64,000 bases of DNA. Source: Xylanimonas ulmi. GTDB taxonomy: Bacteria > Actinomycetota > Actinomycetes > Actinomycetales > Cellulomonadaceae. The DNA is taken from positions 1,240,001-1,304,000 of the forward strand of contig NZ_SGWX01000001.1 of the NCBI RefSeq assembly GCF_004216535.1. The letters run 5' to 3'. A program made the translations under genes and the position numbers. Position 1 is the stretch's first letter. The number at the start of each line of letters is the position of its first letter. A model generated the notes under the pieces. That model was not told where the DNA came from and did no database searches. It saw nothing but the letters and a program-made list of their open reading frames with translations. Below are positions 6,419 to 55,081 of this stretch, one piece after another.

Positions 6419-6478
6419 TGGTTGAGCCTGTCGAAACCACTCACCGCGACCCGGCGGTGGTTTCGACACGCTCAACCA
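6419..6478. repeat. Inverted pair of the dispersed GGTTGAGCCTGTCGAAACC repeat; likely terminator
   Basis: Two 22-nt copies in opposite orientation (6419-6440 and 6457-6478) differ at one base (CAGGC versus CACGC in the right arm) and can fold into a long stem with a 16-nt loop. They fill the 79-bp gap between the convergent argG and hydrolase genes and probably end transcription both ways. The same unit recurs at 7324-7393, 30048-30170 and, degraded, 53879-53898. Confidence 0.75.
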
Positions 6479-6483
6479 CCAGG

Positions 6484-7278
6484 TCAGGGCGCGTGCACCC
6501 CGGGGTCGTCGCGCAACGTGTCCAACAGCAGCGACACGACGGCGTCGGGGCGCTCGAGCGCCGGCAGGTGTGCTGCCCACGCCAGCTCGGTGTGCTCGGC
6601 GCCGGGCGCCGACGCCGCGACGCGCGCGGCGACCTGGCGGTAGTGGTCCAGATCGTGTGCGCCAGAGACGACCAGCGTCGGCACGACGATCCGCATGAGG
6701 TCAACGTCGACCAGCACCTGCCGCGGCCCGTGCTCGGACAGGGCGCCCTCGGCCTCGGCCTGCACCTCGAGCGCGTGGCGCAGCATGGCGGCGAGCGCCT
6801 CACGCGTCGACAGCGCCGCGTCGGGGCCGAGCCAGGTCGCGATGTTGAGCCGCACCGCGCCCTCGATGTCGCCCGCCTCCAGCAGCGCGCTCTCGGCGGC
6901 ATCAAAGGCCTGGGCGTCCTGCGTCGGCTCGACGCCGCGCAACCCGGGGTTGAGGAGCACCAGTTGGCGCACACGCGCGGGATGGCGTGCGGCCAGCTCC
7001 AGCGCGACGCGCCCGCCGAACGAGGACCCGACGACGGCGGCCTCGGCGATGCCGAGGTGGTCGAGCAGCGCGGCGACGTCGTCGGCGTCGGCGTACTCCT
7101 GCGGGGGTAGGGGGGTGTCGCCGAACCCGCGCAGATCGGGCCGCACCACGCGGAAGGTGTGCGCGAGGTGCCCAGCGATGTGCTCCCACATGCGCCGGTC
7201 GGCGACGCCTGCGTGCAGCAGGACGACGGCGGGGGCGGCTTCGCCGGCGGGGCGGGCGTCGTCGTGCGCGAGCAGCAT
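6484..7278 (-). CDS. Alpha/beta-fold hydrolase
   Basis: A 264-residue alpha/beta hydrolase of unknown substrate. It shows the oxyanion strand VVLLHAGVADRRMW, the DLRGFGDT loop near residue 50 and the nucleophile elbow GSSFGG (GxSxG) near residue 85. The acid and base are expected in VVSGAHD and the AHLPALERPD segment near the C-terminus. The start is set at ATG 7278 because TAGCGT lies 7 nt upstream, a leaderless arrangement; an ATG at 7314 would add 12 residues. It is convergent with argG, and repeats lie between it and the AraC regulator. Confidence 0.8.
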   Translation of the reverse strand: MLLAHDDARPAGEAAPAVVLLHAGVADRRMWEHIAGHLAHTFRVVRPDLRGFGDTPLPPQEYADADDVAALLDHLGIAEAAVVGSSFGGRVALELAARHPARVRQLVLLNPGLRGVEPTQDAQAFDAAESALLEAGDIEGAVRLNIATWLGPDAALSTREALAAMLRHALEVQAEAEGALSEHGPRQVLVDVDLMRIVVPTLVVSGAHDLDHYRQVAARVAASAPGAEHTELAWAAHLPALERPDAVVSLLLDTLRDDPGVHAP

Positions 7279-7323
7279 GGTGCCCACGCTAGGTCCGGAT
7301 GTGACCGGCGTCATGCGGAGCCG

Positions 7324-7393
7324 GTGGTTTCGACAGGCTCAACCACCGGGGCGACTCAACCACAGGGAGCCCGTGGTTTCGACAGGCTCAACC
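7324..7393. repeat. Two direct copies of the dispersed GTGGTTTCGACAGGCTCAACC repeat
   Basis: Copies at 7324-7346 and 7373-7393 have the same orientation and are separated by a partial ACTCAACCAC motif. They occupy the gap between the divergent hydrolase and AraC genes, just upstream of the AraC start. They are the same unit as at 6419-6478 and inside ribBA. Confidence 0.8.
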
Positions 7394-8415: not shown

Positions 8416-10779
8416 ATGAGTGCCATCTCGGCTGACGGTCACGACGTCATCCGCGTCCAGGGAGCGCGCGAGAACAACCTCCAGGACGTGAGCGTCGACC
8501 TGCCGAAACGGCGGCTGACGGTCTTCACCGGGGTGTCCGGGTCGGGCAAGAGCTCGCTGGTGTTCGACACGGTCGCGGCCGAGTCGCGCCGCCTGATCAA
8601 CGAGACCTACAGCGCGTTCCTCCAGGGGTTCATGCCGACGCTCGCGCGCCCCGACGTCGACGTACTGGAGGGGCTGACGACGGCGATCGTCGTCGACCAG
8701 GAGCGGCTGGGCGCCAACCCGCGCTCGACCGTCGGGACCGTCACCGACGCGCACGCCATCCTTCGTGTGCTCTACTCCAAGCTCGGCGAGCCGTACGTCG
8801 GCCCACCCACCGCGTTCTCGTTCAACGTCCCCACCTCGACGGTCTCGGGCATGTCCGCGGTCGAGAAGGGCGGGCGCGTCGAGAAGACGGCGGTGCGCGC
8901 CAGGGTCTACCTCGGCGGGATGTGCCCGCGATGCGAGGGGCGCGGGCAGGTCTCTGACCTCGACCTGTCAGCCATCGTCGACGAGGAGCGCTCCCTGTAC
9001 GGCGGCGCCATCCAGGCGCCCGGCTACACACCCGAAGGCTGGATGGTCAAGGGCTTCGCGGAGTCGGGGTTCTTCGACCCGGACAAGCCCGTGCGCGAGT
9101 TCACCGCCCGCGAGCGCGACGACCTGCTGTACAAGGCGGCCACCAAGGTCAAGATCGCCGGGATCAACATGACCTACGAGGGTCTGATCCCCAAGCTGCG
9201 CAAGTCGATGTTCTCCAAGGACCCCGACCAGCTCCAACCCCACATCCGGGCGTTCGTGGAGCGGGCGGCGACGTTCGGCACGTGCCCCGAGTGCGAGGGC
9301 ACACGCCTGTCGGCCGGACCGCGCGAGTGCCGCATCGACGGCAAGTCGATCGCGGACGTCGCCCGGATGCAGGTCTCGGACCTGGCCGCATGGGTCGACG
9401 GGCTCGACGCGCCGAACGCCGGCCCGCTCCTGGAGGCGCTGCGCGGCACACTGTCCGCCTTCGTCGAGCTGGGCCTCGGGTACCTCTCGCTCGACCGCCC
9501 CTCCGGGTCACTGAGCGGAGGAGAGGCGCAGCGCATCAAGTTGCTGCGCCACCTCGGCTCGGCGCTGACCGACGTCACCTACGTGTTCGACGAGCCCACC
9601 ATCGGCCTGCACCCGCACGACATCCAGCGCATGAACGGGCTGCTGACGCGGCTGCGCGACAAGGGCAACACGGTGCTGGTCGTCGAGCACAAGCCCGAGA
9701 CGATCGCGATCGCCGACCACGTGGTCGACATGGGCCCCGGCGCCGGGACGGGCGGCGGGCAGGTGTGCTTCGAGGGCACCGTCGAGGGGCTGCGCGCCTC
9801 AGACACCCTGACGGGCCGTCATCTGGACGATCGCGCCCGCCTCAAGGACGCGGTGCGCGCCCCGCGCGGCGCCATCGAGGTCCGCGGCGCGTCGGCCAAC
9901 AACCTGCGCGGCGTGGACGTCGACGTGCCGCTCGGCGTGCTGACCGTCGTCACGGGCGTGGCGGGCTCGGGCAAGAGCTCGCTCATCCACGGGTCGGTCG
10001 CGGGCCGTGACGGCGTCGTCGTCATCGACCAGGGCGCCATCGGCGGGTCGCGGCGCTCCAACCCGGCGACCTACACCGGCCTGCTCGAGCCGATCCGCAA
10101 GGCGTTCGCCAAGGCCAACGGCGTCAAGCCGGCGCTGTTCAGCGCGAACTCCGAGGGCGCGTGCCCCACGTGCAAGGGCAACGGCGTCATCTACACCGAG
10201 CTGGGCTTCATGGAGACGGTCTCCACGCCGTGCGAGGACTGCGGCGGGCGCCGGTTCATGGCCTCGGTGCTGGAGTACAGGCTGGGCGGCAAGGACATCG
10301 CCGAGGTGCTTGAGCTGCCCGTCGCGCAGGCGGAGGCGTTCTTCGCCAAGGACGGCCCGGCGCCGCTGCCGGCCGCGCACGCCATCCTCGACCGGCTCGC
10401 GGGCGTGGGGCTCGGGTATGTGACCCTCGGCCAGCCGCTGACGACGCTGTCCGGCGGGGAGCGCCAGCGCATCAAGCTCGCCGCGCAGATGGCTGAGAGG
10501 GGTGGCGTGTACGTCCTGGACGAGCCGACGACGGGCCTGCACCTGGCCGACGTCGAGAACCTGCTGCGCCTGCTCGACCGGCTCGTGGACTCGGGGCGGT
10601 CGGTCATCGTCATCGAGCACCACCAGGCCGTCATGGCGCACGCCGACTGGATCATCGACCTGGGGCCCGGCGCCGGGCACGACGGCGGACGCGTGGTGTT
10701 CGAGGGCACGCCCGCCGACCTGGTCGCGGCGCGCTCGACGCTCACGGGGGAGCACCTGGCGCAGTACGTCGGGGCGTGA
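8416..10779 (+). CDS. UvrA-like ABC protein lacking the UvrB-binding region
   Basis: A 787-residue twin-ATPase UvrA paralog. Both halves are intact: Walker [10 protein letters not shown] near 39 and GVAGSGKSS near 514; signatures LSGGEAQRI near 366 and LSGGERQRI near 678; Walker [13 protein letters not shown] near 390 and LDEPTTGLH near 700. Zn-binding CPRC/CPEC and CPTC/CEDC pairs are near 170, 290, 583 and 606. True UvrA is about 950 aa; the missing part is in the first half, where the UvrB-interaction domain normally lies. Class II paralogs of this type are linked to drug tolerance rather than core excision repair. ATG 8416 follows GAGGAG. A TAGGTT -10 lies at 8371-8376. Confidence 0.88.
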
Positions 10780-10794
10780 TCAGGGCCGAGCGCT

Positions 10795-10872
10795 GATGTC
10801 ACTGATCGTTGACATCGGAAGGAATGTCACTTAGCGTTGACATTCGTCCCGATGTCAGCGACCGCAGACATC
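10795..10872. promoter_or_regulatory. Three tandem 22-bp hipB-type operators, phased 28 bp
   Basis: Three dyads lie end to end before hipB. 10795-10816 is GATGTCA-N8-TGACATC (perfect) and 10823-10844 is AATGTCA-N8-TGACATT (perfect). 10851-10872 is GATGTC-N10-GACATC, the same 22-bp frame with the innermost pair changed. Their centres are exactly 28 bp apart. The architecture, short half-sites with an 8-bp spacer repeated several times, parallels the E. coli hipBA operators (TATCC-N8-GGATA). HipB is the obvious ligand. Confidence 0.8.
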
Positions 10873-10894
10873 ATCCGGAGCCCGGGGGAGAGCG

Positions 10895-11149
10895 GTGATC
10901 GTCACCAACGCCGAACAGCTCGGCGCCCTGCTGCGCCGGGCGCGCAAGGAGCGCGGCCTGACCCAGGCGCAGGTCGCCGCGACCGCGCGCGTCTCGCGTC
11001 AGTGGGTCGTCGCCGCCGAGGCCGGCGCGCCGACGGCACGGCTCGACCTCACGCTCGACGTGCTGCGCGCCGTCGGGCTCGTCGTCGACGTCGTGCCCGA
11101 CGAGCCTGACGACGCGATCGAGACCGTCCTGGGCCGTGCCCGTGGGTGA
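10895..11149 (+). CDS. hipB: HipB-like helix-turn-helix antitoxin/repressor
   Basis: An 84-residue Xre-type DNA-binding protein. The HTH spans about residues 9-62 (LLRRARKERGLTQAQVAATA, then VSRQWVVAAEAG), followed by a hydrophobic strand (VLRAVGLVVDVVP) typical of HipB dimers. GTG 10895 follows a GGGGGAG ribosome site. It overlaps hipA by 14 bp, as in canonical hipBA operons. It should neutralise HipA and, with it, repress the operon at the three operators upstream. Confidence 0.87.
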   Translation: MIVTNAEQLGALLRRARKERGLTQAQVAATARVSRQWVVAAEAGAPTARLDLTLDVLRAVGLVVDVVPDEPDDAIETVLGRARG

Positions 11150-12545
11150 CCGCCTCGACGTATGGCTCGACGGCAGGCACGCCGGCTCCCTGGAGCGCGC
11201 GCGTGGCGGCGCGGTGTCGTTCGCCTACGCCGCGGCCTTCCAGGAGCTGCGCGTCGCGCCGTCGCTGTCGGTCAGCATGCCGCGCCACGCGACCCACCAC
11301 GGCCCGCAGGTCGTCGAGCCGTGGATCGACAACCTGCTGCCCGACAGCGACACCGTCCGCGCGCGGTGGGCCGCCCGCTTCGGCGAGCGGCGGCCCACCG
11401 CGTTCGCCCTGCTGCGCCACATGGGCGCCGACTGCGCCGGCGCCGTGCAGATCCTGCCCGAAGGCTCCGCGCCCGCCGACGACGCCGGAGCGCAGCCGCT
11501 GACTGACGCCCAGATCGCGGCCCACCTGCGCGAGCTGCGCCGCGACGACAGCGCGTGGGCGTTCGAGAGCCACGGGGGACGCTTCTCGCTCGGCGGCCAG
11601 CAGGGCAAGTTCGCCCTCGCCCGCGACGTCGACGGCGCGTGGACCCAGCCCACCGGCCGCACCCCCAGCACCCACATCCTCAAGATCGGCGTCGGCGGGC
11701 TCGACCACTCCGACGCCGCCGAGCTCGTCACCATGCGCGCCGCCCGCGCGCTCGGCCTCGCCGTCGCCCGCGTCGAGGCCGCCTGGTTCGAGGACCAACC
11801 CGCCGTCGTCGTCGAGCGGTTCGACCGGCTGGCCGGGGCGGACGGGCGGGTGCGGCGCCTGCACCAGGAGGACCTGTGCCAGGCGCTGGGCCTGTGGCGC
11901 GCAGCCAAGTACGAGGCCGACGGCGGACCCGGCGTGCGCGTCATCGCCGATGCCGTCGCACGCGCCGCCGACCCGCGCGACCTGGCCGCCTCGCGCGACG
12001 ACCTCGCCCGCGCCGTCATCCTCAACTGGGTCGTGGCCGGCACCGACGCGCACGCCAAGAACCTCGCGCTGCTGCACGTCGGCGCCCGCACCGTGCTCGC
12101 ACCGCAGTACGACCTGGTCAGCGCCGCGCTCCTGTGGCCGCCCGAGGAGGTCTGGCACCGCGGCAGGCTCGCCATGCGGCTGGGCGGGGAGTACCGTCTG
12201 CGCGGCGTCGGCACCAGGCACGTCGCGCGCGCCGCCCAGGACCTCGGCGTCGAGCCCGAGTGGCTGGCGGACGTCGCCGCGCAGTACGCGAGCGCGTTCC
12301 CCGACGCCGTGCGCGACGTCGTCGCGCAGCACCGGCGCCTCATCGACGCCGCGACCGCGCGGCAGTTCGTCGACGGCGCCGCCGCGCGCTGCGCGGACGT
12401 GCTGCGGGCGCTCGGGCAGCGTCAGGCCGCGAGCGCCGCCGACCGACCGGGTGACGCCGTCTGGATTCCCGCGCACGAGCGCGACGGTCGTCGCGTCGAG
12501 GGACACTGGCGGTCGCGTCCCGGCCGGCGGGCGCGCAGCGTGTAG
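11136..12545 (+). CDS. hipA: HipA-family serine/threonine kinase toxin
   Basis: A 469-residue HipA kinase. It has the N-terminal HipA domain (VWLDGRHAGSLERARGG), then SFSLGGQQGKFAL-type Gly-rich loop near 153. The catalytic segment GTDAHAKNLALLH, with Asp and Asn, is near 302, and YDLVSA (the DFG-like metal site) is near 325, so all active-site elements are present. E. coli HipA phosphorylates glutamyl-tRNA synthetase and promotes persistence; the target here is unknown. GTG 11136 overlaps hipB by 14 bp; an in-frame GTG at 11142 is equally possible. The last 40 residues are a disordered-looking extension. Confidence 0.88.
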   Translation: MPVGDRLDVWLDGRHAGSLERARGGAVSFAYAAAFQELRVAPSLSVSMPRHATHHGPQVVEPWIDNLLPDSDTVRARWAARFGERRPTAFALLRHMGADCAGAVQILPEGSAPADDAGAQPLTDAQIAAHLRELRRDDSAWAFESHGGRFSLGGQQGKFALARDVDGAWTQPTGRTPSTHILKIGVGGLDHSDAAELVTMRAARALGLAVARVEAAWFEDQPAVVVERFDRLAGADGRVRRLHQEDLCQALGLWRAAKYEADGGPGVRVIADAVARAADPRDLAASRDDLARAVILNWVVAGTDAHAKNLALLHVGARTVLAPQYDLVSAALLWPPEEVWHRGRLAMRLGGEYRLRGVGTRHVARAAQDLGVEPEWLADVAAQYASAFPDAVRDVVAQHRRLIDAATARQFVDGAAARCADVLRALGQRQAASAADRPGDAVWIPAHERDGRRVEGHWRSRPGRRARSV

Positions 12546-28896: not shown

Positions 28897-29427
28897 TCAC
28901 AACCCGCGCAGTTGGCGGTGCAGTTCGTACCGGCCGCGGCCGGCCACATCGCCGTCGGGCAACGCCGCGCGCAGCGCCACGACCGTCGCGACCGCCGCCT
29001 GCGCGGCCTCGTAGCCCTTGTCCTCCCCTGAGCCGGGCAGCCCCGCACGGTCGAGCGCCTGCGCCTCGTCGTCGCAGGTGAGCACACCGAAGCCCACCGG
29101 GACACCCGTGCGCACCGACAGCTCGGTCAGGCCCGTCGTCGCGGCCGAGCACACGTAGTCGAAGTGCGGCGTCCCCCCGCGGATCACGACGCCCAGCGAG
29201 ACGACGGCGTCCGCGCCTGCGGCCACGGCCCGCGAGGCGGCGACGGGCAGCTCGAACGAGCCGGGCACCCGCACCTCGGTCACCTTCTCGACCCCCGCGT
29301 CGCCCAGCGCGCGCCGCGCGCCGTCGAGCAGACCGTCCATGACCTGCGTATGCCAGCTCGCCGCGACGACCACGACGCGCAACCCGCGTCCGTCCACGGT
29401 CAGGGTGGGTGCTCCGGCGCCGCTCAT
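28897..29427 (-). CDS. ribH: 6,7-dimethyl-8-ribityllumazine synthase
   Basis: A 176-residue lumazine synthase that condenses the ribityl-uracil with dihydroxybutanone phosphate, the step before riboflavin synthase. Landmarks: [35 protein letters not shown]; and [20 protein letters not shown] with the catalytic His. [18 protein letters not shown] follows. ATG 29427 overlaps the ribBA stop (ATGA), so it is the last of four coupled rib genes. Confidence 0.95.
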
Positions 29428-30836
29428 CGGCTCTCCTTCGTCGGTTCGGGGCCGCCCAGCGTCAGCAGGTGGCCCATGTGCAGCTTCTTGGTGGTCAGGT
29501 AGTGCTCGTTCTCGGGCCCCAGGCCGACCTCGATCGGCTCACGCCCGACGACGTCGACGCCCGCGGCGCGCAGTCCCTCGGCCTTGCGCGGGTTGTTGCT
29601 CAACAGGCGCACGCGCTCCAGGCCGAGGGCGCGCAGGATCGCCGCCGCCGCGCCGTACTCGCGCGCGTCGATCGGCAGGCCCAGGTCCACATTGGCCTCG
29701 ACGGTGTCGCGGCCCTGGTCCTGGAGCGCGTAGGCGGCGACCTTGGCTGCCAGCCCGATGCCACGGCCCTCGTGCCCGCCCACGTAGACGACGGCGCCGC
29801 CGTGTTGCGCGACGGCGCGCAGCGAGGCCCGCAACTGCGGTCCGCAGTCGCAGCGCAGCGAGCCGAACGCGTCCCCCGTCAGGCACTCCGAGTGGACCCG
29901 CACCCACGGCACGGCGTCCGGCTGCGCGCCGGCCGCGACGAGCGCGACGTGCTCGTCGCCCGTGTGCGCGTCGCGGAAGGCGTGCAGCCGGAACACGCCG
30001 TGCTCGGTGGGCAGCCGCGCCTGCGCCACATGCTCGACCCGCGCGCCGGTTGAGCCTGTCGAAACCCGCTGGGGGCCGGCGCTGGTTGAGCCTGTCGAAA
30101 CCCGCTGGGGGCCCGCGCCGGTTGAGCCTGTCGAAACCCAGCGGGGGGTGGTTTCGACAGGCTCGACCACCCGGGGGCTCGTGTCCTCGTGCGCACGCCG
30201 CCACGCGACGAGGTCGGCGATGGTCAGCAGCTCCAGGCCCTCGGCCGCCGCGAACGCGCGCGCCTCAGCCAGCCGCACCATCGCGCCGTCGTCGCGCACG
30301 AGCTCGCCGATCAGCCCGACCTCGCCCGCGCCGGCCGCCCGGACCAGGTCGACCGCGGCCTCGGTGTGCCCCGGCCGCTCCAGGACGCCGCCCGGCACGG
30401 CGCGCAACGGCAGCACGTGGCCCGGCCGGATCAGGTCGGTGGGCGCGGTCGTCGGGTCCGCCAGCACGCGCAGCGTCCGGGCGCGGTCGGCCGCGCTGAT
30501 GCCCGTGGTCACGCCCGACGCCGCGTCGACCGAGACCGTGTAGGCGGTGCGCCGCGGATCGCGGCTGTCGGTCACCATGAGCGGCAGGCCGAGCGCGTCG
30601 GCCCGCGCGGCGGGCATGGGCGCGCACAGGTATCCCGAGGTGTGGCGCACAGTCCAGGCGACCCAGCGCTCCTCGGCGTGGCGTGCGGCCATGACGACGT
30701 CGACCTCAGCCTCGCGATCCTCGGCGTCGGCCACGAGCACCGGGAGACCGGCCGCGAGCGCCGCCAGCGCCCGCGCGACGGCGTCGCCGCGCCCCGCGGG
30801 TTGTGGTGGGCCGGCGGGGGCCGTCGGGGCGGTCAC
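29424..30836 (-). CDS. ribBA: Bifunctional DHBP synthase / GTP cyclohydrolase II with repeat-built linker
   Basis: A 470-residue fusion. Residues 1 to about 215 are RibB (3,4-dihydroxy-2-butanone 4-phosphate from ribulose 5-phosphate), with the EDREAEVD metal loop, [10 protein letters not shown] and [13 protein letters not shown]. Residues 264 to the end are RibA (GTP to the ribosylamino-pyrimidine), with zinc cysteines in [26 protein letters not shown] and NNPRK. Between them (about 222-263) lies a linker encoded by four copies of the genome's dispersed repeat, giving VSTGST units. Normal RibBA proteins have a linker of only a few residues. GTG 30836 overlaps the ribE stop (GTGA). Confidence 0.93.
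30048..30170. repeat. Dispersed-repeat array inside ribBA (three 36-bp direct units plus one inverted copy)
   Basis: GGTTGAGCCTGTCGAAACCC recurs at 30048, 30084 and 30120, an exact 36-bp period (12 codons). An inverted copy follows at 30148-30170. In the ribBA frame the direct units read [12 protein letters not shown], and the inverted copy reads VVEPVETT. The reading frame is kept throughout. The third direct copy and the inverted copy can form a hairpin. Confidence 0.9.
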
Positions 30837-31435
30837 CGCTCCCCCAGTGCGAGCATGCGTTCGACGTACTTGGCCAGCACGTCGACCTCGACGTTGACGC
30901 CGTCGCCGGGTTGGAGGGCGCCGAGGGTGGTGGCGGCGAGGGTGGTGGGGATGAGGGCGACGCCGAACCCGGTGGTGGTGACGTGGGTGACGGTGAGGGA
31001 GACGCCGGCGAGTGCGATGGAGCCCTGGGGGGCGACGTAGCGGCGCAGAGGCTCGGGCAGGTCGAAGGTGAGCTCGTCCCAGCGTGGCCCGGGGGTGCGC
31101 GACGTGAGTGTGGCGACGCCGTCGACGTGGCCTTGGACCACGTGCCCGTCGAGCCGTCCGGCTGCGGGCACGGCGCGCTCCAGGTTGACCTGTGCGCCCG
31201 GCCGCAGTGCGCCGAGCGTGGTCAGGCGCAGGGTCTGGGGCATGACGTCGGCGGTGAACGCGCCGCCGGGCAGGTCGACGACGGTGAGGCAGACGCCGTC
31301 GACGGCGATGGAGGCGCCGTGCCGGGCGTCGGCGGTGACGTGGTCGGCCTCGATGGTGAGCACGGCGTCGCGGCCGTCTCCGCGGTGTTCGAGGGCGCGG
31401 ACGCGGCCGCGCTCCTCGACGATTCCGGTGAACAT
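30833..31435 (-). CDS. ribE: Riboflavin synthase, alpha chain
   Basis: A 200-residue protein of two homologous lumazine-binding barrels. It begins MFTGIVEERGRV; barrel 1 has DGVCLTVV and FTADVMPQTLRLTTLG, and barrel 2 has HVVQGHVDGVA and ALAGVSLTVTHV. It dismutates two lumazines to riboflavin. ATG 31435 shares one base with the ribD stop (TGATG) and its stop overlaps ribBA (GTGA). Length is standard (about 200-215). Confidence 0.95.
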   Translation of the reverse strand: MFTGIVEERGRVRALEHRGDGRDAVLTIEADHVTADARHGASIAVDGVCLTVVDLPGGAFTADVMPQTLRLTTLGALRPGAQVNLERAVPAAGRLDGHVVQGHVDGVATLTSRTPGPRWDELTFDLPEPLRRYVAPQGSIALAGVSLTVTHVTTTGFGVALIPTTLAATTLGALQPGDGVNVEVDVLAKYVERMLALGER

Positions 31436-32577
31436 CAGTGCTCCTTGCCGGTGGTGTGGGCGGGGTCTGTGGGATGGGCCGGCTCGCTGACGTGGGCTGG
31501 CTCGGTGGGGTCGACGGGCTCGGTCGGCTCGGCGCGTGCGACGAGCAGGGCGTCGTCGCCGAGGCGCTGGACGCTGACGGTTCGCCAGCGGGGTGCGCCG
31601 GACAACGTGGTGACGCCGAACGGGGCGACGGCGGAGGGTCCGGCGCCGAGCAGGACGGGGGCGAGGTAGGCGTGCACCTCGTCGACGACGCCGGCGGCGA
31701 GCAGCGCGGTGGCGAGCGCGGGTCCGCCCTCGACGAGCAGGTGGCGCACCTCGCGCTCGTGCAGCGCGGCGAGCACGGTCGCCGCGTCGTGGGTGCGCAG
31801 CCGCACGACCTGCCCCCCGGGACCGTGCAGCCGGGCGCCGGGCGGCAGGTCGCGGTGGCCGACGACGACGCGCAGGGGCTGGTGGCCGGCGAGGGCGCCG
31901 TCGGGCGTGCGCGCGGTGAGGGCGGGGTCGTCGGCGAGCGCGGTACCCGTGGTGACGGCGATGGCGTCGACCGTGGCGCGCACGGCGTGGGCGTGGGCGC
32001 GCGCGGCGGGGCCGGTGATCCAGCGGCTCGTGCCGTCGGGGGCGGCGACGCGTCCGTCGAGCGTGGTGGCGAGCTTGAGGGTGACGTAGGGGCGTGCGGC
32101 GCGCAGGGCGTGGCGCCAGGCGCGCACGAGGTCGAGGGACGCCGCGGCGCGCAGCCCGCCGCTGACGAGGACTCCGTGCGCGCGCAGGGTCTGGGCTCCC
32201 CCGCCCGACGCCTGGCCGGGGTCGTCGAGCGCGTAGACCACCTCGGCGACGGCCGCGTCGAGCAGGGCGCGCGCGCACGGGCCCGTGCGGCCGGTGTGGT
32301 CGCAGGGTTCGAGCGTGACGACGGCGGTGGCAGCGCGGGGGTCGTTCCCGCGCTCGCGGGCGTCGGCGAGCGCGGCGACCTCGGCGTGGTCGGTCCCCGC
32401 TCCGCGGTGCCAGCCCTCGCCGATGACGCGCCGCGCGACGTCCCCGGGCCGCTGGGGGGCGAGCAGCACGCAGCCGACGCGCGGGTTGGGGCCGTGCGCG
32501 GGTCCACGGGCGGCGAGCGTGAGCGCACGGTCCATCGCGGCGGCGAGGTCCGCCACGTGCGTTGGCGTCGTGCCCAT
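31435..32577 (-). CDS. ribD: Bifunctional riboflavin deaminase-reductase
   Basis: A 380-residue protein. The N-terminal deaminase has GPNPRVGCVLL, the zinc/catalytic HAEV and LEPCDHTGRTGPC. The C-terminal reductase has VTLKLATTLDGRVAAPDGTSRWITG and HLLVEGGPALATALL. It carries out the second and third steps of the GTP branch. The last 30 residues are a low-complexity Glu-Pro-Thr-His tail not seen in the core family. ATG 32577 follows GGAGG, which lies in a hairpin downstream of the FMN riboswitch. First gene of ribD-ribE-ribBA-ribH. Confidence 0.94.
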   Translation of the reverse strand: MGTTPTHVADLAAAMDRALTLAARGPAHGPNPRVGCVLLAPQRPGDVARRVIGEGWHRGAGTDHAEVAALADARERGNDPRAATAVVTLEPCDHTGRTGPCARALLDAAVAEVVYALDDPGQASGGGAQTLRAHGVLVSGGLRAAASLDLVRAWRHALRAARPYVTLKLATTLDGRVAAPDGTSRWITGPAARAHAHAVRATVDAIAVTTGTALADDPALTARTPDGALAGHQPLRVVVGHRDLPPGARLHGPGGQVVRLRTHDAATVLAALHEREVRHLLVEGGPALATALLAAGVVDEVHAYLAPVLLGAGPSAVAPFGVTTLSGAPRWRTVSVQRLGDDALLVARAEPTEPVDPTEPAHVSEPAHPTDPAHTTGKEH

Positions 32578-32675
32578 CGGTCCTCCGGAGCCTCGGCGCT
32601 CCGGGGTCCACGACCGGCGGCATGCCCGCAAGGGCACGCCGCGGCGTGTCACGGCGCGCGATGGCGCACGCCGCC

Positions 32676-32803
32676 CATGCTTCCTCCCATCCGGACTCTC
32701 ACCGTCGGCCCTGGAGTTCCACCAGGTCGGCCACACCAGATCGCTCTCGTGTGGTTCGCGGGCTGTCACCGCCGGCTCGGAATTTCACCGACCCCGGAGC
32801 ATG
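32676..32803 (-). promoter_or_regulatory. FMN riboswitch (RFN element) controlling ribD-ribE-ribBA-ribH
   Basis: The reverse strand carries the RFN core in order: CCGGGGTCGGTGAAATTCCG, CCGGCGGTGACAGCCCGCGA, GGTGGAACTCCAGGGCCGAC and GAGAGTCCGGATGGGAGGAA. P1 is CATGCT (32803-32798) pairing with AGCATG (32681-32676). About 75 nt further on, CCGGAGC (32604-32598) and GCTCCGG (32591-32585) form a hairpin whose 3' arm runs into the ribD ribosome site. This suggests FMN-dependent translation control. Confidence 0.93.
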
Positions 32804-32896
32804 TTTGGACCCGATGCTGCCAGGCGAGGGCCTGTGCGCGCAACGTGCGGTCGCGCGCCGTCCGGAGCACGAGACGGCGCGGGCGGGCAGGGGCGG

Positions 32897-52755: not shown

Positions 52756-53762
52756 CAGATCGAGCTCCCCTCAGCCGAGGAGTCCCCGGCCAGCAGCAGG
52801 TACAGGGCGGCCATGCGCACCGCGACGCCGTTGGCGACCTGCTCGACGATCACCGAGCGGGGCGAGTCGGCGGCCTCCGCGGAGATCTCCAGGCCGCGGT
52901 TCATGGGACCGGGGTGCATGACGACGGTGTGGGCGGGCAGCATCGCCAGGCGCCGGTGGTCCAGGCCATAGCGGCGCGAGTACTCCAACGGGCTCGGGAA
53001 GAACGCGCCCGCTCCCCCAGACATCCGCTCGCGCTGCACACGCAGCATCATGACGGCGTCGGGCTGCCCGTGGGCGAGCGTCTCATCCAGGTCGTAGGAC
53101 GTCGTGCACGGCCAGGTCTCGACGCCGACCGGCAGCAGCGTGGGCGGGGCGACCAGCGTCACCTGCGCGCCGAGCGTGCGCAGCAGGCGCACGTTCGAGC
53201 GCGCCACGCGCGAGTGCAGCACGTCGCCCACGACGGCGACCTTGAGTCCCGCCAGGTCCCGCCCGACGCCGTCGCCACCCGCGCCGCCGACCCGGCCCAC
53301 CAGGTGGCGGCGGATCGTGAACGCGTCGAGCAGCGCCTGCGTGGGGTGCTGGTGGGTGCCGTCGCCGGCGTTGAGCACCGCGACCGGGTTGTCCGCGCTG
53401 CCCAGCCAGCCCGAGTGGGCGAGCTGGTGCGGCGCGCCGCTGGCCCAGTGCCGCACCACGACGGCGTCGGCGCCCATGGCGTGCAGCGTCAGCGCGGTGT
53501 CCTTGAGCGACTCGCCCTTGGACACGCTCGACCCCTTGGCCGAGAAGTTGATGACGTCGGCCGACAGGCGCTTGGCCGCCGTCTCGAACGAGATGCGCGT
53601 GCGCGTGGAGTCCTCGAAGAAGAGGTTGACCACGGTGCGCCCGCGCAGCGTCGGCAGCTTCTTGATCTCGCGCGACTGCGTCGCGGCCATCTGCGCTGCG
53701 GTGTCGAGCACGAGGATGGCCTCCTCGAGGCTCAGCTCGTCAGTGGACAGCAGGTGCCTCAT
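52755..53762 (-). CDS. pyrB: Aspartate carbamoyltransferase, catalytic chain
   Basis: A 335-residue ATCase catalytic chain with no adjacent pyrI, as usual in Gram-positive bacteria. The carbamoyl-phosphate motif [13 protein letters not shown] is near 48-60. [44 protein letters not shown] and HPGPMNRG follow in order. ATG 53762 overlaps the pyrR stop (ATGA). It condenses carbamoyl phosphate with aspartate. Confidence 0.96.
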
Positions 53763-54454
53763 CGCGACTCCCCCTCCCCGCCGTCGTCGGTGGACGGGCC
53801 GGCGTCGGCCGAACCGCCCCCGCCGGTCGCACCGCCACCGCCGGCCGAACCGCCTCCGCCTGTCGAGCCGCCACCGCCGGTCGAGCTTGTCGAGACCCGT
53901 CCGGTGATCACGACGGCGTCGCTTCCGCCGTCGACATCGGCCAGGCGCACCAGCACGCGCTCGCTCGCGGAGGTCGGCAGGTTCTTGCCCACGAAGTCGG
54001 GGCGGATCGGCAGCTCGCGGTGGCCGCGGTCGACCAGCGCCGCCAGGCGCACCGCGCGCGGACGGCCCAGGTCGCTCAGGGCGTCGAGCGCGGCGCGGAT
54101 CGTGCGCCCGGAGTACAGGACGTCGTCGACGAGCACCACGACCTTGTCGTCGACGCCCGCCTGCGGCAGCCGCGTCACCCCGACAGCCCGCGTGGGGTTG
54201 CGGCGCAGGTCGTCGCGGTACATCGTCACGTCGAGCTCGCCCAGGGCGGCGACGGGGTCGAACGCGGGATCGATGCTCGCCAGGCGCTGGGCGAGGCGGT
54301 GGGCGAGCGGGACGCCGCGCGTGGGGATGCCCAGCAGGACGACGTCGGCGGCTCCGCGGGAGCGTTCGACCACCTCGTGGGCGATGCGGGTCAACGCCCG
54401 CTGAATGTCCTCGGCTCCGAGGACTGTGGTGACCGATGGCAGGCCGAGGCTCAC
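53759..54454 (-). CDS. pyrR: PyrR regulatory protein/uracil phosphoribosyltransferase with Gly-rich tail
   Basis: A 231-residue PyrR; the family is usually about 180-190. The core includes [20 protein letters not shown], the PRPP loop [19 protein letters not shown] at 105-122 and [20 protein letters not shown]. From about residue 186 an extra tail follows. It begins with VSTSST, encoded by a decayed copy of the dispersed repeat, then GGGGS-like runs and an acidic end. PyrR senses UMP and represses the pyr operon at the mRNA level. GTG 54454 lies in a hairpin that resembles a PyrR site. Confidence 0.94.
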
Positions 54455-54485: not shown

Positions 54486-54569
54486 TTAAAGGGTGTCTTG
54501 CGCCCCCCACACTAACCCGCCCCGACCCCCACCCCCCTCCCCACCCAAGGCGACCTCCCTCACACCCAC

Positions 54570-54657
54570 ATACCGAAACCCCGCCGAGATACCGGAATCC
54601 GGTCACGGATCGCGCGGATCGTGACCGAGGACCGGTACCTCGGCGGGGTTGCGGTAT
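54570..54657. repeat. 88-bp near-perfect palindrome between nusB and pyrR
   Basis: The left arm from 54570 (ATACCG, AAACCCCGCCGAG, ATACCGG, then GGTCACG) is mirrored to 54657 with only a few mismatches, around a loop near 54611-54614. Arms are about 42 nt, far longer than an ordinary terminator. It begins 8 bp after the nusB stop. It may terminate efp-nusB transcription, or be a palindromic mobile or REP-like unit. Confidence 0.8.
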
Positions 54658-54664
54658 CTCGGGG

Positions 54665-55081
54665 TTAGGAGAGGAGGGTGGGTTTGATGTCGACGAGGCG
54701 GGCCAGGAGGCCGTTGACGAACGACGGCGAGTCGTCGGTCGACAGTTGCGCGGCCAGGTCGACCGCCTCGTCGATCGCGACGGCGTCGGGCACGTCGTCG
54801 TTGAAGAGGATCTCCCACGCGCCGATGCGCAGCAGGGCGCGGTCGACGGCGGGCATGCGCTCGATCGTCCACCCGTTGGAGTACGTCTCAAGCAGCTCGT
54901 CGATGCGGTCGCGGTGAGCGCTGACGCCCTCAACGACGTCGGCCGCGTACTGCGGCACGGGCGACTCGGTCAACGGCCGGGCCACGCGCTCGCGCAGCAG
55001 CCCGACGGCGTCGACGCCGCGCTGCTCCGCCTCGAAGAGGATGTCGGCGGCGCGCTTACGCGCCTTGGTGCGTGCACCCAT
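54665..55081 (-). CDS. nusB: Transcription antitermination factor NusB
   Basis: A 138-residue all-helical RNA-binding protein of rRNA antitermination. KARKRAADILFEAEQRGVDA, then VEGVSAHRDRIDELLETYSN, GWTIERMPAVDRALLRIGAWEI and FVNGLLARL are the NusB core. ATG 55081. It follows efp (37 bp), a conserved efp-nusB pair, and precedes the long palindrome. Confidence 0.95.
   Translation of the reverse strand: MGARTKARKRAADILFEAEQRGVDAVGLLRERVARPLTESPVPQYAADVVEGVSAHRDRIDELLETYSNGWTIERMPAVDRALLRIGAWEILFNDDVPDAVAIDEAVDLAAQLSTDDSPSFVNGLLARLVDIKPTLLS

Follow-up and report, generated by a model that had tools for sequence, protein, structure and literature searches.

The ribBA locus of Xylanimonas ulmi raises the question of how a short palindrome that is dispersed mainly outside genes comes to be translated between the two catalytic domains of a biosynthetic enzyme, and of whether this gene is an isolated case. 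The stretch of DNA analysed (the window) comprises 64,000 nucleotides, in which an FMN riboswitch (32674..32805, minus strand; RF00050, 92.2 bits) lies upstream of four genes on the same strand, each recognised by its Pfam domains: a ribD-type gene (31438..32556, coding part from a purpose-made gene caller; PF01872, PF00383), a riboflavin synthase (lumazine-binding) gene (30836..31435; PF00677, two stretches), ribBA, and ribH, the lumazine synthase gene (28897..29427; PF00885).

The ribBA reading frame, complement(29424..30836), starts with GTG and is open throughout its 470 codons with no inner stop, the product being a 3,4-dihydroxy-2-butanone-4-phosphate synthase / GTP cyclohydrolase II of 470 amino acids. 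Pfam and the alignment to PDB 4i14 place both domains that characterise RibBA in this one chain: the DHBP synthase (RibB) domain at residues 22-212 (30201..30773, minus strand; PF00926, E = 3.6e-72) and the GTP cyclohydrolase II (RibA) domain at residues 269-433 (29538..30032, minus strand; PF00925, E = 3.5e-61). Both align with 4i14 (E = 1.3e-118), which we take to be the RibBA of M. tuberculosis, over 203 and 193 query residues, but at the junction query residue 218 corresponds to residue 207 of the structure and query residue 266 to residue 208. Since the two domains thus abut in the solved structure, with no residue between them, the X. ulmi protein possesses 47 extra residues (219-265; 30042..30182, minus strand), flanked on both sides by residues that are invariant among 23 aligned sequences.

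This segment holds four copies of the repeat. A sense copy (GGTCGAGCCTGTCGAAACC, one mismatch; 30150..30168, minus strand), read as VEPVET, is inverted with respect to three exact plus-strand copies of GGTTGAGCCTGTCGAAACC (30120..30138, 30084..30102 and 30048..30066), each of which is read on the gene strand as VSTGST. The antisense copies form part of three 36-bp tandem units (30043-30078, 30079-30114 and 30115-30150, together 30043..30150 on the plus strand; TRF period 36, 2.9 copies), identity to the first unit being 94% for the second and 86% for the third. Coordinates, open frame and Pfam boundaries therefore agree with the original prediction of three direct 36-bp units plus an inverted copy placed in frame between the RibBA domains, and the anticipated VSTGST-type reading was confirmed for all three antisense copies.

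The repeat itself is a palindrome with the stem GGTGGTT/AACCACC and the loop GAGCCTGTCGA, its consensus being extendable to GGTGGTTGAGCCTGTCGAAACCACC and preceded by a C-rich flank. Nine sites with at most 3 mismatches were recorded in the window, as against none in 100 dinucleotide shuffles, and the X. ulmi genome (G000), assembled as one contig of 3,965,098 bp, contained 283 sites (134 + 149) that differed from the core at no more than 3 positions, as against none for the reversed control; the window and 56 stretches selected for their exact copies supplied the 174 sites that were examined. When exact-copy loci were grouped by hand, 32 of 61 fell between 3.0 and 3.97 Mb of the contig (C1), approximately a quarter of the genome. 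Predicted folding energies are −8.9 kcal/mol for a single unit, which forms a 7-bp stem, −51.4 kcal/mol (z = −9.6) for a head-on pair between genes and −70.1 kcal/mol (z = −2.8; 3 of 200 shuffles as stable) for the ribBA array. Stem pair 4-16 covaries among 407 copies outside genes (T-A 308, C-G 57, T-G 19, C-A 18), a pattern that could alternatively stem from subfamily inheritance.

Further copies in the window occur between convergent genes (plus at 6420, minus at 6459; 6420..6477), as two copies at 7326 and 7375 (7326..7393, minus strand) upstream of a minus-strand gene (6487-7287), and, as a diverged copy with 3 mismatches read VSTSST (53879..53897, plus strand), in the C-terminal tail of a phosphoribosyltransferase-family protein. 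The tail of that protein (53762-54454, minus strand) near 53800-53900, which adjoins this copy, reads like a natural version of the engineered (GGGGS)n linker.

A 25-bp stem-loop in so many copies, with head-on (+-) as the commonest cluster pattern outside genes in X. ulmi (10 of 51), has the attributes of a REP, namely a short (20-40 bp) palindrome in many copies and in head-on pairs. The typical REP location behind gene 3' ends was likewise observed: among copies outside genes, 175 followed a gene end by no more than 60 nt, as seen in the sense of the copy, and 37 lay instead beside a gene start. Neither a terminal GTAG tag nor a CGTC tag was present at the ends of the consensus CCCCGGTGGTTGAGCCTGTCGAAACCACC around the copies.

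Genes were called with a purpose-made codon-usage gene caller and named from domain content. On this basis 24 of 75 X. ulmi clusters are intragenic, no two sharing an ORF, and every one of the 24 host ORFs was recognised by Pfam; besides ribBA there are thus 23 others, 22 of which hold the repeat wholly in the same codon phase. In the family as a whole, 282 clusters were examined in 12 genomes, and 82 of them were in genes, the other 200 being outside genes or overlapping a gene edge; in one genome (G009) none of 24 clusters was in a gene. Among the X. ulmi hosts are PutA, in which the repeat separates proline dehydrogenase from aldehyde dehydrogenase, LigD, in which it separates primase from phosphoesterase, and HrpA, in which it separates HA2 from OB. 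NuoG, an MrfA-like helicase and a fused double ABC ATPase carry it too, as do thymidylate kinase and NuoJ in their tails. In short, RibBA is one instance of a general pattern in which the repeat is translated as a linker or loop in many enzymes, and these in-frame copies within conserved genes are of the kind that marks coding palindromic (RPE-like) repeats.

With domain spans entered by hand, 21 of the 24 in-gene clusters of X. ulmi fell outside Pfam domains, compared with 8.9 expected; the remaining three lay within Fpg (L068), an AMP-binding domain (L098) and a glycosyltransferase (L055). In other genomes, for which a part of the host proteins was checked, further copies were found within domain spans, so that the rule is better phrased as loops and linkers, linkers only being too strict. 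One such case is an Ffh/SRP54-type GTPase of an incomplete genome (G005; L271:630-2363), which carries VVEPVETT inside its GTPase domain. In another genus (g7; G108, G083, G056; L210-L229, L246-L249), compact head-on in-gene pairs were seen, their starts often 21 nt apart, and 9 of 18 examined clusters of G108 lie in genes.

A single codon phase, in which the sense strand reads VEPVET and the antisense strand VSTGST, accounted for 147 of the 153 in-gene copies and 78 of the 82 in-gene clusters in all 12 genomes taken together. The stretches examined had mostly been selected for holding copies, and this total includes repeated counts of orthologous genes. For X. ulmi alone the figures were 46 of 47 copies and 23 of 24 clusters, all in different genes (p = 1.5e-6 against one half). 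Set as a prediction from this genome, the rule held in three others (G002, 42/45; G033, 2/2; G112, 5/5), G002 presumably being Xylanimonas cellulosilytica. Of 71 spacings between in-gene copies, 69 were divisible by three, as against 63/77/69 by remainder outside genes once pairs touching a gene edge had been left out (Fisher p = 9e-26). Four clusters were exceptional: a RecO tail (L063), a TetR-family tail (L280), an aminotransferase (L114) and a PAS domain (L235). In L114 (G002, 9805-11166) the aminotransferase class-V Pfam match ends at residue 274 of 371, before a mainly off-phase array, and the gene has possibly been cut short by the repeats; the match inside the PAS domain looks like chance.

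Four causes of this phase preference were weighed. Avoidance of stop codons was rejected, as alternative phase 1 proved to be open in every one of the 24 in-gene arrays of X. ulmi read on both strands (33 of 33 sense-first and 15 of 15 antisense-first readings); arrays outside genes were open in phases 1 and 2 in 53 and 51 of 71 sense-first readings and in 25 and 21 of 31 antisense-first readings. A natural codon phase of the constituent words, or a bias of the gene caller, was similarly rejected as the main cause. When the repeat's 16 six-base words were counted in 675,462 repeat-masked coding bases from the X. ulmi and G002 stretches, 13 favoured a phase other than that used (TTCGAC, 443/450, CTCAAC, 244/252, and GCTCAA, 296/305, all in the GFDRLN phase; CCTGTC, 212/243), and only GTTGAG (18/28), CGAAAC (6/10) and GACAGG (21/52) leaned to the phase used.

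A third possibility is that an insertion bias could fix the phase, set by homology or by a target site such as GTCGAG/CCC runs, with peptide selection playing no part. The C-rich flank before the copies is consistent with such targeting, as are the coding preferences for the used phase shown by two one-base variants of words of the repeat, GTCGAG (for GTTGAG; 1091 of 1147 instances) and GAGCCC (264 of 350), and the presence of an exact GAGCCTGTCGA in the same phase in the RibBA linker of G001. Distances from the nearest upstream stop to copies outside genes, sorted by remainder 0/1/2 with the last corresponding to the phase used, numbered 47/61/67 in the 12 genomes, a slight lean at most and strongest in G007 (8 of 11). 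However, the corresponding values for X. ulmi were 20/21/26, the 13 exact words whose natural phase is another one belong above all to the antisense strand, and 17 antisense-only clusters nonetheless occupy the used phase. We accordingly regard the setting of phase at insertion as rather improbable.

The fourth possibility is selection on the encoded peptide. We infer that off-phase insertions were removed because LSLSKP, FRQAQP and GFDRLN make worse linkers than VEPVET and VSTGST. Synonymous changes were not enriched among in-gene copies (90:40 inside compared with 222:126 outside, p = 0.28), and the substitution pattern itself therefore shows no protein-level selection.

The fold predicted for the ribBA array also bears on a different account, in which the array acts at the level of RNA or translation, its hairpin and rare codons slowing the ribosome between RibB and RibA and thereby aiding folding or setting the enzyme ratio. 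In addition to that stable fold, the positions of the copies, which favour stretches outside domains, would be in keeping with such a device, as would the rarity of GTT, CCT, GAA, ACA and TCA, each of which makes up 1.3-3.9% of the codons for its amino acid. Nevertheless, the LSLSKP and FRQAQP readings equal or exceed the used one in rare codons, only GFDRLN having fewer, so that rarity does not explain the phase, and relatives manage without the repeat; the account is in our estimation very unlikely. The expectation that the array can form a hairpin in a riboswitch-controlled mRNA agrees with the predicted fold and with the position of the operon behind the FMN riboswitch, a regulatory role of the hairpin being hypothetical.

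The reading that best accommodates these results, at a probability of roughly 0.75, is that a REP-like repeat, located mostly behind genes, survives inside genes as an in-frame flexible linker and grows by local duplication. The repeat would have multiplied in some species of the family but hardly at all in their sister species, with most copies coming to rest outside genes, often right behind them and often as head-on pairs. Copies or pairs arriving within genes would seldom persist unless the array stayed in frame and was read as VEPVET or VSTGST, peptides whose richness in V, E, P, S, T and G should suit flexible loops and linkers. At ribBA, a sense/antisense pair would have settled at the permissive RibB-RibA junction, and its antisense half would later have been duplicated in tandem as the 36-bp unit, lengthening the linker relative to that of the nearest species and leaving the catalytic domains untouched. 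Peptide-level selection is then the probable cause of the phase rule, the added residues are probably neutral in function, and the events presumably followed one another in the order given.

A more elaborate version of this mechanism supposes a dual-purpose cassette, moulded in its sequence to give a tolerable linker whichever way round it is read, in the one phase whose third positions coincide on both strands. We consider this proposal doubtful. Were it correct, the cassette would allow a selfish hairpin to live inside essential genes, and would repeatedly build linkers or loops in the same enzymes across species (LigD, HrpA, fused ABC ATPases) and across genera (PutA, prolyl oligopeptidase).

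Growth by local duplication is indicated by the spacers between copies: those of the same length showed 92% mean identity within arrays, where 12 of 21 pairs were of equal length, compared with 52% between arrays (42 of 507 pairs). The local expansion that had been proposed for the ribBA array is thereby supported.

How the repeat has spread among genomes was assessed in a sample of 150 from the family, 25 of which carry at least one copy at no more than 1 mismatch. Within the genus, several of whose genomes are incomplete, the counts at this threshold ranged from 555 (G002), 190 (X. ulmi), 178 (G009), 58 (G005) and 47 (G003) down to 18 (G007), 4 (G001), 3 (G004), 2 (G008) and none (G006, G010). 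A RibBA tree pairs X. ulmi with G001 (98/97) and G002 with G004 (89/86, below the tool's star), so that copy number differs approximately 48- and 185-fold between probable sisters, a relationship for which this one-gene tree is a thin basis. The nearest of 24 RibBA loci in named genomes were those of Xylanimicrobium pachnodae, Cellulomonas and Promicromonospora.

The 11-nt loop pattern GAGCYTGTCGA, searched against its reversed control in 98 genomes of the class, lent no support to a class-wide repeat: it was strongly above control in X. ulmi (245 compared with 22) and modestly so in several others, among them G151 (60 and 28), G207 (35 and 10), G212 (32 and 13) and G223 (43 and 25), but the control exceeded the pattern in many.

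A search for the Y1 tyrosine transposase of the RAYT family (PF01797), whose controls were positive in 5 of 14, gave no match in X. ulmi and a match in only one of the 150 family genomes (G081), itself devoid of copies of the repeat. A RAYT-driven REP was consequently rejected, and the mobility ascribed to the repeat in the original prediction failed to find support. The failure to find a mobilising enzyme by this search counts against the preferred reading.

A further alternative, compatible with the preferred reading, is that the linker repeat is an old protein feature, ancestral in the family and now being lost. The same linkers are indeed occupied in different species: that of LigD in X. 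ulmi, G002 and, in diverged form (19/25), G007, the repeat being absent from G001 and G004; that of HrpA in X. ulmi, G002 and again diverged (20/25) in G007; and that of a helicase (L086) in X. ulmi and G002, with a weak 17/25 match in G007. PutA carries the repeat in two genera (the Xylanimonas genus, and G108 and G056 of another), and prolyl oligopeptidase carries it in G002 and G083. In RibBA, the linker of G002 holds GGTGGTTCCGACACGCCCGACCACC, which matches the antisense unit at 21 of 25 positions in the same phase (VVPTRPTT), and that of G001 a weak 17/25 match, which could be fortuitous or a relic. Against this, the RibBA genes of G003, G004, G007, G008 and 12 named loci contained no match within 8 mismatches of 25, those of Cellulomonas, Promicromonospora and X. 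pachnodae (probably G003) among them, and the many exact copies point to recent spread. The near-empty genomes of the probable sisters G001 and G004 favour repeated entry at permissive sites over an old gain followed by loss; the latter sequence of events is possible, and an ancestral linker repeat is in our view unlikely.

Measured by one pattern, the RibBA linker segment has 77 residues in X. ulmi and 46, 44, 45 and 46 in G001-G004, with different sequence at the same junction in other species of the genus; these relatives' linkers are too divergent to define the boundaries of an insert in the manner required for a MITE. In G008 the segment is 80 residues long and lacks the repeat, an observation that counts against the preferred reading. 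The proposal that a non-coding repeat has become a protein linker thus holds in so far as a mostly non-coding dispersed repeat here codes in frame, but the linker itself is not new.

Tandem repeats are prone to misassembly and the gene caller was purpose-made, so that an artefact of assembly or gene calling has also to be considered. The single-contig genome, the Pfam match in every host ORF and the same phase for in-gene copies in 10 other genomes make this explanation scarcely credible.

Coding palindromes of related type have been described. The RPEs, with the Wolbachia WPE and Methanocaldococcus elements, are in-frame palindromes in conserved genes that also occur between genes; according to the available text of the sources, orthologues have inserts at the same sites, the segments are non-structured, and each RPE is said to encode a conserved peptide (PMC2229807, PMC3767692, PMC10969869, PMC2996958). 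The present repeat resembles them in occurring both in frame within conserved genes and between genes, but RPEs as first described are of approximately 100-150 bp, whereas the present unit is of 19-25 bp; the repeat differs further in its tandem arrays, in the reading of both strands in one codon phase and in its actinobacterial family. As RPE-4 and RPE-6 have been assigned to CGTC REPs (PMC3733652), the difference in size fails for some RPEs.

The REPs of the GTAG and CGTC super-families (Di Nocera et al. 2013, PMC3733652) are, from the text available, 20-40 bp palindromes and head-on dimers close behind gene 3' ends, some of them in genes, where they encode 20-30 amino acids, and their host genes are often repair enzymes and helicases. 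The CGTC type, like the present repeat, occurs without a dedicated transposase, but the consensus here has neither tag. The available main text of that paper does not contain the word Actinobacteria, and states no codon-phase rule for REPs; it does cite untagged REP-like families in D. radiodurans and in M. tuberculosis, an actinobacterium, to the latter of which the present repeat may or may not be akin. The PARCELs are likewise tandem palindromic coding repeats, but, as far as the available text indicates, they form 25-residue amphipathic domains tied to membrane proteins rather than linkers of housekeeping enzymes (PMC2996958). Searches of open-licence literature returned no relevant report of the repeat or its peptides as exact strings and, among the matches listed, no case of actinobacterial intragenic REPs. 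Within the limits of that search, the kind of element, a coding palindrome, is known, and the repeat family and its strict phase appear to be new.

In the available text of the sources, coding palindromes have so far come from Rickettsia, Wolbachia and scattered REP-rich genomes (PMC2229807, PMC3767692, PMC10969869, PMC3733652). The many actinobacterial cases reported here, with their one strict codon phase, make the idea that small repeats seed protein linkers directly testable, the more so for the contrasting copy numbers of the probable sister species, and imply that differences in linker length between related enzymes can stem from the spread of a repeat and not from adaptation of the enzyme. 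Elsewhere in the window, at 54558-54669, there is a 50-nt inverted repeat, 80% complementary and with a 12-nt loop, which is unlike the repeat of the ribBA linker.
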